DNA of 64,000 nt from Candidatus Gastranaerophilales bacterium (GTDB lineage: Bacteria > Cyanobacteriota > Vampirovibrionia > Gastranaerophilales > Gastranaerophilaceae): assembly GCA_944326565.1 (NCBI GenBank), contig CALVEL010000002.1, forward strand, positions 124,001 through 188,000, read 5' to 3'. Positions 14,526-21,010 of the stretch are shown here, piece after piece (within the stretch, counting starts at the first letter, position 1; each line of letters begins with the position of its first letter). The notes under the pieces are model-generated. The model was not told the origin of the DNA. It ran no database searches and saw nothing but the letters and a program-made list of their open reading frames with translations. A program made the position numbers and the translations under genes.

Positions 14526-14783
14526 CTATTTGTAAAGCTCCTCAATATCATATTTATATTTTTCAAGGTCATCAAACGAAAAAATAGATTTCAAATCGGC
14601 TCCGAGAGCCCTTGAAATTTTAAACAGTGCACTTATGGTTACATCTCTTTTTCCGGCTTCAATCATTGCAATGTGAGAGCGTGATATGCCGGATTCAAGA
14701 TAAATTGTTTCCTGAGTCATATTTTTTTGCTGCCTGATTTTTCTGATATTTTGCCCGAGAGCTTTTTTAAAATTGTTGCACAT
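14526..14783 (-). CDS. XRE-family (Cro/C1-type HTH) regulator, divergent from a pilin gene
   Basis: 85 aa, essentially only an HTH_3 domain: LGQNIRKIRQQKNMTQETIYLESGISRSHIAMIEAGKRDVTISALFKISRALGA, followed by a short acidic tail. Size and layout resemble restriction-modification controller proteins, but no R-M genes are adjacent. It is transcribed away from the pilin-like gene, with which it shares a control region holding GTCA/TGAC inverted repeats (14808-14833). It probably regulates both. No clear SD precedes its ATG. Confidence 0.85.
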   Translation of the reverse strand: MCNNFKKALGQNIRKIRQQKNMTQETIYLESGISRSHIAMIEAGKRDVTISALFKISRALGADLKSIFSFDDLEKYKYDIEELYK

Positions 14784-14833
14784 ATTGTTATTTTATGATA
14801 TGTTACTGTCAGTGACTGTCGCTGATAGTGACA
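14776..14833 (+). promoter_or_regulatory. Pilin promoter with inverted-repeat operators
   Basis: TTGCAC (14776-14781), 17 bp, TATGTT (14799-14804). Directly downstream are GTCAGTGAC (14808-14816, palindromic about its centre) and TGTCGCTGATAGTGACA (14817-14833, 7 bp arms with one mismatch). They cover the expected start of transcription, a repressor-like position, and probably bind the divergent XRE protein. Confidence 0.6.
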
Positions 14834-14847
14834 TTAAGGAGAATATT

Positions 14848-15507
14848 ATGACTAAAAAAGCATTCACATTGTCAGAAGTGCTGATTACGCTGGGTATAAT
14901 TGGAGTTGTCATGGCCATGACGCTGCCCGCTTTGATTGGCAAGTGGCAGAAAACTGTTTTTGCAAATAAAGTTAAATATGCGTATTCTGTAATTTCAAAT
15001 GCATTTTTAATGGCGGAACAGGAGTACGGCGACCCGACCCAGTGGGATTGGGGCAGCGAACAAACCTACGAAAATAATAAAAGAGTTGTTGAAACCTATT
15101 TGCTGCCGTACTTAAACACTCTTGAAACAGGAAGACATTATGGCAATTCTCAAATTGCAACATTAAAAAACGGGCTTTATCTTATGTTTATACTTGACGG
15201 CTGCACAAATCCGGATGCATGCAATCCTGTCACTATTAGTGCTCTGTATATTATTGTTTCTACAAAACCCAAAACAATTCCAATGCAAGACGAAAAAAGA
15301 GATTATTCAAGGGAAGATTTTATATTGCGCTTCAGCCGTTCAAATAAAAAATTGAACTTTTTTCACTGGGGTAACTTTACAAGAGATGGGATAAAAAATC
15401 ATTCGCTTTACGGCTGCAACAAGAATATTTTAAAAAATAAAAGATTAAACTGCGGTGCATTAATTTTCTATGACGGCTGGGAAATCAAAGATGATTATCC
15501 ATGGTAA
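14848..15507 (+). CDS. Type IV pilin-like protein
   Basis: 219 aa from the ATG at 14848, chosen because AAGGAG precedes it and the leader is then a canonical MTKKA before the cleavage site and FTLSEVLITLGIIG. Glu at +5 is present and the hydrophobic helix runs through about residue 28. The soluble domain is aromatic-rich with a few Cys (CTNPDACN, YGCNKN, LNCG). Same family as the truncated gene at the left edge but the soluble parts differ. Likely an exported pilin or pseudopilin; single-gene transcript controlled by the divergent XRE protein. Confidence 0.85.
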   Translation: MTKKAFTLSEVLITLGIIGVVMAMTLPALIGKWQKTVFANKVKYAYSVISNAFLMAEQEYGDPTQWDWGSEQTYENNKRVVETYLLPYLNTLETGRHYGNSQIATLKNGLYLMFILDGCTNPDACNPVTISALYIIVSTKPKTIPMQDEKRDYSREDFILRFSRSNKKLNFFHWGNFTRDGIKNHSLYGCNKNILKNKRLNCGALIFYDGWEIKDDYPW

Positions 15508-15511
15508 GAAT

Positions 15512-15608
15512 AAATGTTAAATTTCGGTCAGCCACAGTCATCCTGAATTTATTTCAGGATCCCTTTGAGATACTGAAACAAGTTCAGCATGACCGAAATT
15601 TAACATTT
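15512..15608. repeat. 97 bp palindromic repeat element
   Basis: Outer arms are a perfect 19 bp inverted repeat (AAATGTTAAATTTCGGTCA, 15512-15530, and its complement 15590-15608). Inside are two nested hairpins, TCCTGAA/TTCAGGA (15541-15559) and CTGAA/TTCAG (15573-15587). The inner sequence resembles the dispersed TCCTGAATTTATTTCAGGAT-type palindromes of many bacterial genomes. No protein-coding content. It could double as the pilin gene terminator. Confidence 0.75.
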
Positions 15609-15689
15609 GAGAAATTTCGTCTGAATATTAAATCTTGTGCAACTATATGACTAAAGTTTGAAAAAAGATAATTCGATTATCCTAACCAC

Positions 15690-15717
15690 TTGAAATTTAT
15701 AAAAAGTAAGTTATAAT
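15690..15717 (+). promoter_or_regulatory. Promoter of a small plus-strand RNA
   Basis: TTGAAA (15690-15695), 16 bp spacer, perfect TATAAT (15712-15717). The expected start is about 15724, at the foot of a stable hairpin. Confidence 0.65.
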
Positions 15718-15723
15718 AAATAT

Positions 15724-15819
15724 AGGGTGGGTGCTCTGCTAAGCACCCGTTACAGACCCTAAATGAATAACGAAATTATTTGTAAAAAGAGCCCTACTGC
15801 ATTTAGGACTCTTTTTATT
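15724..15819 (+). ncRNA. Candidate antisense RNA (type I antitoxin-like)
   Basis: About 95 nt between a good promoter and a good terminator, with no open reading frame. The 5' part folds as GGGTGCT/AGCACCC (15729-15748) with an outer AGGG/CCCT clamp. The 3' end is a terminator: AAAAAGAG-CCTA pairs with TAGG-CTCTTTTT (15784-15816, one C-A mismatch), then ATT. It is antisense to almost the whole 24-codon minus-strand ORF at 15759-15833, so it could block that peptide's mRNA. It lacks the conserved apical motif of SRP RNA and is too short for 6S RNA. No experimental support. Confidence 0.5.
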
Positions 15820-15833
15820 ATGTCCGTTTTCAT
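15759..15833 (-). CDS. 24-residue hydrophobic peptide, candidate type I toxin
   Basis: Short ORF (24 codons plus TAG) starting MKTDIIKRVLN and ending in a hydrophobic segment (AVGLFLQIISLFI). Its ribosome binding site GAAAGGAGGTGA is perfectly complementary to the 12-base 16S rRNA tail TCACCTCCTTTC and lies 4 bases from the ATG. Such a Shine-Dalgarno on a tiny membrane-active peptide is typical of type I toxins and of holin-like toxin genes. The complete ORF is covered by an oppositely transcribed RNA. It lies 88 bases downstream of the helicase gene on the same strand; a TATACT that could be its own -10 is near 15865. Small size keeps this tentative. Confidence 0.45.
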   Translation of the reverse strand: MKTDIIKRVLNAVGLFLQIISLFI

Positions 15834-15921
15834 CTTCTCACCTCCTTTCCACCCATGTTACAGTATAGTGTTTGATGTGTAGTTGGAGGGATTCGGTCTT
15901 ACCCTATATTAAATTATCAGA

Positions 15922-18900
15922 TTATTTTTCGGGATTAAGCTCTCTCAGAACTCTGTCAAGGCAGGCATTCGGCGAGTATTGCCATTCACGGAAGGTTATT
16001 CTGTTTACCTTAAAGCCGCAGCGTTCCAGGATTGCCTGTTTTTTCATTGAGGGCATTGTTGAGGAAATTTTATCTTCCATACCGTCAACTTCAATAACTA
16101 TCTTGTCATCAACAAGTAAATCCGCAGACAATCCGGCAATTTCGGCACCTGCCTGAACTTTATAACCCCGTTCTCTGATTTGGGATGCGATAATCTGTTC
16201 AAGCTCGTTTTTGTAAATATTTTCTTCAATATCTCCTGAAAGTGTTGCTTGACGTACATTTTGATAATGTTTTAGGAAGTTAATGTAATTTCTGAAATGA
16301 CCTTCCGGAAGTTCTGTCGGGTCTTTTGAGATGAAGTTTATAACTTTATTTCTTGCACGGGTAACGGCTACGTTAAAGAGGTTCGGTTTTTGCAAGAATA
16401 TCAAGCTTTGCGGGAAACTGTTGTTTGCAATTGCCCAGCTAATCAGCATAATATCTCTTTCATCACCTTGGAAAGTGTGTGCTGTACCGATTTCAATTTG
16501 GTGTTTTTTAATCATGTGATCAGATAGAACCTTTGATAAAGAAACTTTAAGCTGTTCAACCTGCGCTCTGAACGGTGAAATTATACCTATTGTAACCGGG
16601 TTTTCGGGGTTTTTACGCTCATCTTCAATTACAATTTCATGAACTCGTTTTACTACAGCCTCGATTTCGGGCAAGTTTCGAGTTGCATCAGCATCAACTT
16701 TTCCGTCTTTTACTTCTTCTAATTCTAAGACCAAATCGTCTGATTTATCCTTTCTCATTACCCGAATTCTATCGTTGTAAAATTCGTGGTTTGAAAAATT
16801 GATTACAGGCGGAAGGCTTCTGAAATGTTCATCAAGCATAACGGAATTAATTGAATAATAATCTGCCAAATCAAACATTGAATTTGTTCTGAAACGCCAG
16901 ATAAGCTGGTATTTGTCAGGGATTCCATATTGGCTCAAGAATGATTGTTCTTTCGCTTTTTCCAAGAATGAAAGATGCGGTAATTGTTTGTCATCACCGA
17001 CTATTACAGCACGTTTGGCTCTGAATAATATCGGGAAACAGCTTGCGATATCGCATTGTGAAGCCTCGTCAATAATTGCAACGTCAAACATCCCGGGTTT
17101 TAAGGGAAGTGAGTCTGATACAGCGTAAGTCGTTACGCACCAGCAGGGGAAGGCTTCTAATAGCGGTTTGAAGTCTTCTTCTTCTAAAATATTTGTCTGT
17201 TGGCGTTTGCGGTTTGATATTAGTGATTTTGCGTGAATTTTCAGCCTTCTGCATTTGTTTTCGTCACGAAGAAGAGATTTTAGCGCTTCACGACGTTTGT
17301 TTTTCAAGATGTTTACAGCAAGTTTTGGCTGTTTTTTCTTCATTTGTCTTATTTGTTCAGACATTATATGAAGATTGCCAAGGGTTTGAATTTGTTCTTC
17401 GACATTATTCATATCAGCAATTTTTGCTGCAAGCTGCAATTCTTCAGCCAGTTTTGAAAGGTTTTGAGTATTTGCATCAAAATCTTTCATCTCAAGAATT
17501 TTCTTTAACTGTGAAAGTGTTGTGAAGTTAGTAAATTTGCTGAAAATTCCTGTTTTTTGAATATTTTCTCGAAGAGTTTTTATTGTATTTCTGATTGTTT
17601 CTACTTCGTTCTTTTTAAGATTTTTTCTGATGAATACTGGTGCAGGGTGAAGTACGCGTTCTTCTTCTGCATCAATTGATTTTTCTCTCCAAATTTTTTC
17701 GAGTTTAATAATATTTTCGCACTTATTTTCTGTATCTCTCAAAATATCGAGATGGTTTTTCATATCGTCAATATCTGCAAAAAGTGCATCTTCAAAATCC
17801 TCATCAAGTGAAGAATGTTCTGCAATTAAGGCATTTAACTCATTACTCAAGGATCTTTGGTAGTTTAGTCTGCCAGCACGAAGCGCCATATGGCTTGCGC
17901 CAAGTTGGTTTAATCTGTCTGCTACAACATCTACTGCTTTATCCATTCTGGATGCGACAAGTACTGTTTTACCGTTTGCAACAAGATGAGCGACAAGGTT
18001 TACTATTGTTTGAGATTTTCCTGTTCCAGGAGGTCCCTGAACTGCTACAAACTTTGTATTATCAATATTTTTAATAACCTGTTGCTGAGTGTCTGAAAGT
18101 GATAGGGGAGTTATCGGGTAAAATTCTTTTATTGAATTAATATCTTTAATCGGAACGGATTTTTCTTTGCTTTGTGCAAATTCTTCGTTGATTATATTCA
18201 GAGCTGTTTCTCTGTAAATTCCGCTTGGCTGTTCAGCAATTCTTGTTAATTCATGTAAAACTCCTGCTGTCATTGACGGACGTTTGGTTAAAATTATTGC
18301 GCTTTGGTATGTAACCGAAATTTTTTCAAGTTTAACCCGAGCTTTCTGTTGTTGCTCTTCATGTTCAATTACCTCTTCAATATTTTCACCGTCAATTTTT
18401 TCTTTGTAAAAATCTTGTTCATCAGTCTTTGAAATATTGTCTTCGGTTTCATAATCAGATTTGTTATATGAAATTTCAACTTCAGGCACAAGGGATTTGA
18501 GGGTTGTCAAAAAGATATTCAATTTTTCTTCTGTTATCGGAAGTTCCGGTACAACGTCAAGTAGACCTTCAAGCATTATATCAGTTTCGTCTTCATCATC
18601 GGATTTTCTCATTAATGCTGCGAGGGCTCCGGTATTCAATGATAAAACTTCATCAAGAGGCAGACAGTTTATATTTACACCGTTTCTTTCAAGTTTGCAG
18701 GGCATATATAGAAGCGGAGTTAAAAATTCGTTCTGACGTTTTGATTTGTTGCTTTTGCCAACTAAAAACAGATAGCCGTAAATCAGGTATTTATCTTTTG
18801 AACCTAATTCGCTCTGCAACATCAATTCCGTCAGTTTGCTGTCTTTGCCGTCAAGGGATATGTAATCCTTGTTTTGGGTGAAAAGTTCCTCTTCACCTTT

Positions 18901-19056
18901 TAGGAAAATCCATTTGTTATCTTTATCCCCTTTCAGGTTTCTGAAAGTTGAGCTTTTAACTTCTTCTCTTACACAATCGTGAAGATATTGGCTTAATTTT
19001 TTTATAAAACTATTATTGAATGCTGAATTTAATGCTTTTGTTGCTTCCTGTAACAT
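15922..19056 (-). CDS. SF1 (Upf1/Dna2-type) helicase with C-terminal nuclease-like domain
   Basis: 1044 aa. The N-terminal ~300 residues have no recognised motif. Walker A FVAVQGPPGTGKSQT is near residue 342 and Walker B FDVAIIDEASQCD near 658. Later SF1 motifs are IGTAHTFQGDERDIM (motif V) and FNVAVTRARNKVINF (motif VI). Between Walker A and B is a charged coiled-coil insert. From about 955 a DUF559/Vsr-like restriction-endonuclease fold follows: ADLLVDDKIVIEVDG gives the D...ExD core, then ILERCGFKVNRITFREW. ATP-driven unwinding coupled to cutting fits DNA repair or defence against foreign DNA. AGAGGT precedes the ATG. Confidence 0.9.
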   Translation of the reverse strand: MLQEATKALNSAFNNSFIKKLSQYLHDCVREEVKSSTFRNLKGDKDNKWIFLKGEEELFTQNKDYISLDGKDSKLTELMLQSELGSKDKYLIYGYLFLVGKSNKSKRQNEFLTPLLYMPCKLERNGVNINCLPLDEVLSLNTGALAALMRKSDDEDETDIMLEGLLDVVPELPITEEKLNIFLTTLKSLVPEVEISYNKSDYETEDNISKTDEQDFYKEKIDGENIEEVIEHEEQQQKARVKLEKISVTYQSAIILTKRPSMTAGVLHELTRIAEQPSGIYRETALNIINEEFAQSKEKSVPIKDINSIKEFYPITPLSLSDTQQQVIKNIDNTKFVAVQGPPGTGKSQTIVNLVAHLVANGKTVLVASRMDKAVDVVADRLNQLGASHMALRAGRLNYQRSLSNELNALIAEHSSLDEDFEDALFADIDDMKNHLDILRDTENKCENIIKLEKIWREKSIDAEEERVLHPAPVFIRKNLKKNEVETIRNTIKTLRENIQKTGIFSKFTNFTTLSQLKKILEMKDFDANTQNLSKLAEELQLAAKIADMNNVEEQIQTLGNLHIMSEQIRQMKKKQPKLAVNILKNKRREALKSLLRDENKCRRLKIHAKSLISNRKRQQTNILEEEDFKPLLEAFPCWCVTTYAVSDSLPLKPGMFDVAIIDEASQCDIASCFPILFRAKRAVIVGDDKQLPHLSFLEKAKEQSFLSQYGIPDKYQLIWRFRTNSMFDLADYYSINSVMLDEHFRSLPPVINFSNHEFYNDRIRVMRKDKSDDLVLELEEVKDGKVDADATRNLPEIEAVVKRVHEIVIEDERKNPENPVTIGIISPFRAQVEQLKVSLSKVLSDHMIKKHQIEIGTAHTFQGDERDIMLISWAIANNSFPQSLIFLQKPNLFNVAVTRARNKVINFISKDPTELPEGHFRNYINFLKHYQNVRQATLSGDIEENIYKNELEQIIASQIRERGYKVQAGAEIAGLSADLLVDDKIVIEVDGMEDKISSTMPSMKKQAILERCGFKVNRITFREWQYSPNACLDRVLRELNPEK

Positions 19057-20328: not shown

Positions 20329-20520
20329 ACATTAAAAATTGAATTTATGGGGACGTTTGCCTTCTTTTCTTAATGAGAGCGCACGCTCGAATTAAAGAAA
20401 ATGGCTTCACGACTCTAGGAAAATTGTAACTGTTTACGAAAATAATAAAACAGTGAAAGGATTTGACGCCGTACGTAGTACGGCTATTGGACATTAAAAA
20501 TTGAATTTATGGGGACGTTT
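20329..20520 (+). repeat. Duplicated 5' end of ssrA: 30 bp direct repeat around a 132 bp insert
   Basis: The 30 bp from ACATTAAAAATTG to GGGGACGTTT occur identically at 20329-20358 and 20491-20520; the second copy contains the first ten bases of tmRNA. The 132 bp between them contains hairpins GAGCGCACGCTC and GCCGTACGTAGTACGGC and no ORF. This looks like an insertion or slippage event that copied the tmRNA start and left the functional gene downstream. Confidence 0.75.
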
Positions 20521-20908
20521 TGGATTTGACAGGATGTTTCGGTTGGAGCAGGCTGCGTGTCCGTGTGCTGTTCACGGTTATCAACGAGCAAACTAAATTA
20601 AATGCTAAAAATAATGTAATCGAAGCTGACTTCTCTAGAGCTTACGCTTTAGCTGCTTAGTCACTCGAAAATAGCTACTCATAAGACCCAGCTTGCCGGT
20701 TTTATGGGTCAATTATGCAAGCGCAGTGCATTGATGATGGTATGTGCATCCAGTTAACCATCAAGGGTTTAGAGTTTCCCTTTTAAAAACCTAGGATTAG
20801 TTTAAGGGTTTTGGTATTTTCCTGAACTAATTGAGAAAATAAATTCCTACACACGTAGATGTCGGTTACAATCCATTTTGGACAGGGGTTCGACTCCCCT
20901 CGTCTCCA
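20511..20908 (+). ncRNA. ssrA: tmRNA
   Basis: Transfer-messenger RNA that rescues stalled ribosomes and tags the nascent chain for proteolysis. The 5' GGGGACG and 3' CGTCTCCA ends pair as an alanyl acceptor stem. TTTTGGATTTGACAGG and ACAGGGGTTCGACTCCCCT (T arm) are the conserved tRNA-like parts. The tag ORF runs GCT (20604) to TAG (20660) and encodes AKNNVIEADFSRAYALAA, with the expected ALAA degradation signal. One-piece, not permuted. CCA is encoded. Confidence 0.97.
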
Positions 20909-21010
20909 ATTTAAATAAATGAGACAGGTCGTCTCACCGATGCTTCGCATAAAGGTTCTATCCTCTCACAAAACGATATTCAATCGTTTTGTTCGGCAGA
21001 GTCCTCGTCT
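20906..21010 (+). repeat. ssrA-associated structured repeat, copy A
   Basis: Begins in the terminal CCA of tmRNA and ends CCTCGTCT(CCA), echoing the tmRNA 3' end. Internal hairpins are GAGAC/GTCTC (20921-20935), AGG/CCT and the 10 bp ACAAAACGAT/ATCGTTTTGT. A second copy lies at 23116-23221. About a dozen differences by eye, several keeping pairing. Confidence 0.75.

Follow-up and report, generated by a model that had tools for sequence, protein, structure and literature searches.

We describe a short chromosomal unit in Candidatus Gastranaerophilales that is likely to be a type I toxin–antitoxin locus belonging to a new, lineage-specific family. It lies in a 64 000-nucleotide stretch (here called the window) of a 1.87-Mb genome. 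A type I system had been proposed at this position in a preliminary description made from the letters of the window, and the comparison of sequences supports it: the signals of both strands are kept together in many genomes, and the minus-strand reading frame changes in the manner of a coding sequence. The unit sits between two genes, and its parts, with their neighbours, are as follows.

14773-15507, plus strand: prepilin-like gene (named from its sequence), flanking the unit on one side.
15690-15717, plus strand: promoter of the antisense RNA, TTGAAA (15690-15695), a 16-nt spacer and TATAAT (15712-15717), scoring 11/12 against consensus.
15719-15728, no strand assigned: left arm of an inverted repeat, AATATAGGGT, with its partner ACCCTATATT at 15901-15910 (10-base complementarity in the window copy).
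15724-15818, plus strand: predicted antisense (antitoxin) RNA of about 95 nt, placed by promoter, terminator and fold.
15725-15759, no strand assigned: hairpin found by folding, forming the 5' hairpin of the antisense RNA and, on the other strand, a candidate terminator of the toxin mRNA.
15759-15833, minus strand: ORF of 24 codons for a toxin-like peptide, MKTDIIKRVLNAVGLFLQIISLFI, recognized by family conservation and codon-position pattern.
15784-15816, plus strand: antisense terminator, a hairpin and U-tract (TTTTT) within the toxin ORF, recognized by folding and by comparison with synonymous reshuffles across the family.
15838-15849, minus strand: Shine–Dalgarno sequence GAAAGGAGGTGA, read from the sequence.
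15885-15890, minus strand: anti-Shine–Dalgarno CCCTCC in the toxin 5'UTR, pairing with the Shine–Dalgarno in the predicted fold.
15913-15918, minus strand: possible toxin −10 box, GATAAT, lacking a good −35; a weak assignment made by eye and by position relative to other copies.
15922-19056, minus strand: helicase-like gene (named from its sequence), its 3' end towards the unit, flanking the other side.

The Shine–Dalgarno, a 12-base match to the canonical bacterial 16S tail, and the hydrophobic ORF behind it are present as the preliminary description had claimed, as are the promoter, hairpin and U-tract terminator of the plus strand, and the whole recurs in other genomes. The predicted antisense RNA folds with −29.6 kcal/mol (z −4.0; 0/200 shuffles as good), and the minus strand also folds better than its shuffles (z −5.2). 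The antisense −10 box is placed 41 nt past the toxin stop codon in the window, and typically 43–50 nt past it in the family. The proposed length of about 95 nt stands as a prediction, but the RNA had also been thought to be antisense to the whole ORF, and this has to be amended: its predicted end lies inside the ORF, so that the 3'UTR and some 20 of the 24 codons are covered, but not codons 1 to 4–5 or the Shine–Dalgarno. Similarly, the parts first named do fit into about 150 bp, but the unit is longer than this: once the toxin 5'UTR, with the anti-Shine–Dalgarno and the possible −10, is counted as part of it, its limit moves out to about 15918. Two other features were seen nearby: an imperfect palindrome at 15518-15612, resembling a repeat element, which adjoins the unit but lies outside it and has four more partial matches in the same genome, one of which is its opposite strand; and a small ORF of helix–turn–helix type, read from the sequence, at 14526-14783 on the minus strand.

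The distribution of the unit was followed from the genus outwards. DNA searches of the genus gave matches in 11/14 genomes, many of them over the promoter alone, and the match sites had the same layout with a different minus-strand peptide. A sequence-only model (R1) was built from 24 copies (alignment A2, comprising 24 of the 25 extracted copies, with L015 omitted as a near copy of L012); it leans towards the antisense end of the unit. At E ≤ 0.01, R1 matched all 14 genomes of the genus, the three weakest being marginal. It matched 187/288 genomes and 35/41 genera of the family and, at E ≤ 1e-4, 117/192 genomes of the order, including members of four further families; when genomes of other families that had been chosen for an earlier match were searched again, 10/10 matched. 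Matches were obtained in 108/386 genomes drawn from the phylum, and among the matches listed all came from the same order; distant copies could be missed in this draw, because only about seven candidates per genome were scored. A search for the promoter pattern over a genome collection returned 13 stretches, 11 labelled as Gastranaerophilales or Melainabacteria and two labelled only 'uncultured bacterium', and the same pattern had no match in viral contigs. Copy number ranges from 0 to about 11 per genome, and the unit has been lost in many genomes; it appears to be dispensable, since 101/288 family genomes had no match. Copies often stand in tandem; contig 34 of G039, for instance, has four of them spaced about 300 bp apart.

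Several loci found in these searches deserve separate mention. The genome that holds the window gave one more match (contig 3, E 1.2e-4, L120), which has no related ORF and is probably due to chance. L052 (G001 contig 25, 184820 and 185231) has an antisense-like promoter with a hairpin in duplicate, neither copy facing a related ORF; these could be orphan antitoxin-like RNAs. At L063, in a genome of another genus (G234), the ORF core and 3' flank are identical to those of the window and the 5'UTR is 99% identical, with an adjoining helicase end that is about 80% identical; this unit may be a recent transfer between genera.

Multiple and tandem copies would also suit a small mobile or repetitive element of MITE-like kind, in which the ORF is incidental, and the inverted AATATAGGGT/ACCCTATATT repeat at the outer ends of the window copy would fit it too. 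Such elements are, however, hard to reconcile with copies that occupy a site shared between species and that diverge in step with coding constraint, and a blastn search of phage and plasmid records found no match to the unit. We regard this explanation as very improbable, and continue with the type I reading.

If the minus strand encodes a toxin, its peptide should be conserved as a peptide. Conservation of the RNA without the peptide was the outcome that the preliminary description had set against its own reading; the peptide is in fact kept. R1 was rerun on 95 of the 98 loci L029–L126 (L041, L042 and L056 were omitted), giving 132 matches that reduced to 110 distinct ones, and in 98/110 a Shine–Dalgarno sequence precedes an ORF for a hydrophobic peptide of 19–41 residues. 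The best Shine–Dalgarno site among 100 distinct elements was AAAGGAGGTG in 38 and GGAAAGGAGG in 18. The commonest peptide type approximates to MxFxITEKALILILLIILALKxx, and the subfamily of the window's peptide, which has members in other genera, to MxxxIIKxxLxxxxxLLxIIxxFI; the L063 peptide is identical to that of the window. Longer variants of 36–41 residues occur in other families of the order (L094, L087, L103, L089, L090 and L099), with an extra C-terminal stretch past the hydrophobic core. Eleven of the 12 matches listed as lacking a Shine–Dalgarno-preceded ORF were inspected, together with L007; L086:2318 was not. The ORF is intact behind a weaker Shine–Dalgarno in two (L061:2111 and L117), apparently starts with CTG in two more (L085 and L088) and has no Shine–Dalgarno in L106; the start is lost in L110:364, L077:1339 and L086:1502, and no related ORF is present in the two L052 copies and L120. 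Over 47 nearest-neighbour pairs, substitutions at codon positions 1, 2 and 3 numbered 149, 73 and 224; no p-value is attached to these counts because the pairs share ancestry. The pattern is as expected of a peptide that is kept hydrophobic.

A model of the toxin side only (R2, running from the 5'UTR to the stop codon) was made so that conservation of the antisense signals could be assessed without circularity. It gave matches in 24 of 60 family genomes; the window's own genome is missed at 1e-5, because the subfamily of the window is not in R2. The loci used, 30 from the search and 20 from further places that were fetched (a part of the places listed), yielded 57 distinct matches, 55 of them with enough sequence past the stop codon. 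Some of the scored copies had also been used to build R2, but the promoter that was scored lies outside it. An opposite-strand promoter of at least 10/12 was present beyond the stop codon in 52/55 copies, as against 4/55 when the sense strand of that stretch was scored and 2/53 in sequence 200–300 nt away; the three copies below this threshold have an antisense promoter scoring 8 or 9.

The terminator of the antisense RNA is conserved within the codons of the toxin. Compared with synonymous codon reshuffles, the in-ORF hairpin had a mean z of −3.47, with z < −2 in 87/100 copies, and was better than all 60 reshuffles in 77/100; a cruder stem-and-tail score pointed in the same direction, the real sequence beating all 25 reshuffles in 61/100. 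Because the hairpin exceeds what synonymous codons provide, the same bases appear to serve both the peptide and the terminator. Attempts at a consensus structure were less useful. None was found in a mixed alignment of 24 sequences, in which the subfamilies align badly; an alignment of 16 sequences gave 24 pairs, 13 with double changes, but we do not rely on it because one of its helices joins the 5' end of the RNA to the Shine–Dalgarno region, which the RNA does not reach.

These results bear on the idea that only the plus-strand RNA matters, as a small regulatory RNA acting elsewhere, with the opposite ORF present by chance. No part of the unit is conserved better than the plus-strand promoter, and there are copies with no usable ORF (12/110 as listed, fewer on inspection), as this idea would have it. 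Nevertheless, the substitutions track the frame of the ORF, a well-spaced Shine–Dalgarno stands ahead of it in all but those 12 copies, and a model free of the promoter still finds the unit, so that we give a role for the RNA alone the least credence of the explanations considered here.

The type I reading also draws on the anatomy of the toxin mRNA. A toxin-strand promoter of at least 10/12 was present in 39% of 98 copies, compared with 5% of shuffles, mostly 70–110 nt upstream of the start codon. The window's copy has no clear toxin promoter except for the possible GATAAT, the best score in a scan of its toxin strand being only 8.7, which is weak. A small GGGY-A/T-RCC hairpin motif was found upstream in 57/99 copies (expected 0.4). 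The predicted openness of the Shine–Dalgarno had a mean of 0.18, against 0.33 with a shuffled UTR, and was under the shuffled mean in 53/65 copies and higher in 12/65; the folding predictions thus suggest that the 5'UTR tends to hide the Shine–Dalgarno. Past the stop codon there is a hairpin (mean z −3.7) followed by a T-rich tail (at least 6 T of 12) in 81/97 copies, the window's own tail being poorer in T. On the opposite strand this structure forms the 5' hairpin of the antisense RNA, and the T-rich tail is complementary to the −10 region of the antisense promoter; the hairpin looks like a terminator of the toxin mRNA as well. The longest complementarity between the 5' and 3' parts of the mRNA was 8.1, against 6.6 in shuffles, which is suggestive, across the family, of a 5'–3' contact in the toxin mRNA; the AATATAGGGT/ACCCTATATT repeat is the candidate for it in the window.

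Comparison of the window's site between relatives shows how the unit changes. The 3' end of the helicase gene was found in 12/14 genomes of the genus, and behind it stands an intact unit in 7/12 (G000, G004, G005, G006, G007, G010 and G011), a relic in 2/12 (G003 and G012) and no trace in 3/12 within the 330 nt read. In the G003 relic the toxin 5'UTR, Shine–Dalgarno and start codon are gone, with the antisense −10 kept and the −35 differing by one base; that of G012 has lost its start codon and its antisense half, and its Shine–Dalgarno is altered. Wherever an intact toxin was seen at this site in the 12 genomes, an antisense promoter accompanied it. A dead toxin in both relics is what one would expect of a harmful peptide, although they are only two relics, at one site.

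Related genomes carry at this site another toxin/antisense core between nearly identical flanks. Between G000 and G004 the 5'UTR is 99% and the 3' flank 100% identical, with only 58% identity in the ORF core, whereas between G004 and G011 the core is 100% identical and the 5'UTR 82%. G004, whose core matches G011 and whose flanks match G000, is thus a mosaic, and the breakpoint lies close to the start codon. Copies on contig 18 of G004 and contig 1 of G006 behave similarly (96/55/98, the core being the middle figure), as do tandem pairs in G008 (97/53/95); other tandem pairs differ from this pattern (89/97/74 in G064 and 95/91/73 in G151). Toxin and antisense RNA are written in one stretch of bases, so that whenever a core is exchanged the two partners arrive matched. 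Presumably, the exchange is driven by recombination among copies.

It is against this background that we weigh the possibility that the ORF encodes a small membrane protein, harmless or even useful (a regulator, subunit or signal), tuned by a cis-antisense RNA in a layout that merely resembles type I. Coding constraint on the peptide would suit a useful protein equally well. Nevertheless, variation from 0 to about 11 copies, tandem arrays and frequent loss are more in keeping with a toxin than with a housekeeping peptide, as are the rapid change of the core among close relatives and the relics with dead starts. We therefore think this alternative unlikely, though less so than the other two, and retain the toxin interpretation.

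No family in the collections that we searched matched the unit above cut-off. At gathering scores, Rfam returned only the tmRNA gene (20511-20911, plus strand) from the window, and under relaxed settings the stretch 15500-16000 produced two matches, both far under their gathering scores. The peptides had no match above cut-off in Pfam or NCBIfam and none in PHROGs or PADLOC; in Pfam, five of six peptides were unmatched and the sixth, a divergent one of the L010 type, had a weak match to BhlA holin (E 0.16), below cut-off, in a comparison that has little power with such short queries and was run without a positive control.

Several known type I systems can be compared with the unit. The Bacillus pairs TxpA/RatA and BsrG/SR4 also have their antisense overlap at the 3' side, but there it is confined to the 3' part, and the toxins are longer; the unit's peptides had no Pfam or NCBIfam sequence match to toxins of this type. 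They are also alike in the proposed mode of silencing, TxpA/RatA being described as acting to 'stimulate mRNA degradation' and BsrG/SR4 by degradation together with inhibition of translation (PMC4147584). Ibs/Sib of E. coli shares a very short hydrophobic peptide (IbsC has 19 residues) and a cis-antisense RNA over the ORF. It likewise exists in several chromosomal copies, five in MG1655, but Sib extends over the whole coding region and the ribosome site too (PMC4147584), whereas the RNA of the unit ends within the ORF at about 15818, short of the start codon at 15831-15833. AapA/IsoA of Helicobacter pylori resembles the unit in its peptide of about 30 residues, its antisense RNA of 80 nt, its multiple copies and the block to translation by the mRNA's own folding; it differs in that the −10 box of IsoA3 lies inside the toxin ORF (PMC6733600), whereas the unit has its antisense promoter past the stop codon and its terminator inside the ORF. 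Within the same phylum, msoT1/msoA1 of Microcystis aeruginosa has been presented as a candidate type I locus and as the first in Cyanobacteria, systems before it having been confined, according to that account, to Proteobacteria, Firmicutes and Tenericutes (PMC12390103, 2025). By description, MsoT1 has two predicted transmembrane helices (PMC12390103), whereas the peptides of the unit have room for one, and Microcystis is photosynthetic, whereas the hosts of the unit are not. The same account remarks that two type I toxins from Bacillus show no toxicity in E. coli (PMC12390103). The preliminary description knew of no such system in this lineage, and our literature search agrees: no report of a type I toxin–antitoxin in Melainabacteria or Vampirovibrionia was found in a search that left many subscription papers outside it, and papers retrieved for Gastranaerophilales together with toxin–antitoxin were, as listed, on other subjects (a Fusobacterium phage; a coral microbiome). 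Tiny, unannotated peptides make type I systems hard to find.

We envisage that the unit would work in the following way. The minus strand would give a short mRNA, predicted at about 195 nt with an end near 15906, for a hydrophobic or amphipathic peptide of 24 residues which, if made, would enter the cytoplasmic membrane and arrest growth. The plus strand would give the antisense RNA from its strong promoter past the toxin stop codon, crossing the 3'UTR and most of the codons to end at the terminator built into the ORF. Silencing would most likely arise through a long duplex with the mRNA, cut by RNase III, and not through covering of the ribosome site, of which the antisense RNA falls short; the mRNA's own 5'UTR would keep that site shut until processing or refolding.

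With moderate confidence, we go further and propose an order-wide type I family of non-photosynthetic Cyanobacteriota whose parts interlock within about 230 bp: the promoters converge, a single hairpin both begins the antitoxin and closes the toxin mRNA, and the antitoxin terminator lies in the toxin codons. Recombination among copies and species would swap the core as a matched cassette and leave the flanks as they are. A multi-copy family found throughout an order of mostly uncultured bacteria would widen the known range of type I systems. Its roughly 100 natural variants are constrained in toxin sequence, antisense pairing and mRNA folding at once, and they make it possible to test antitoxin specificity between tandem copies and to ask how such genes change without killing their host. 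If our proposal is correct, cassette exchange would change the specificity of both partners in a single step.
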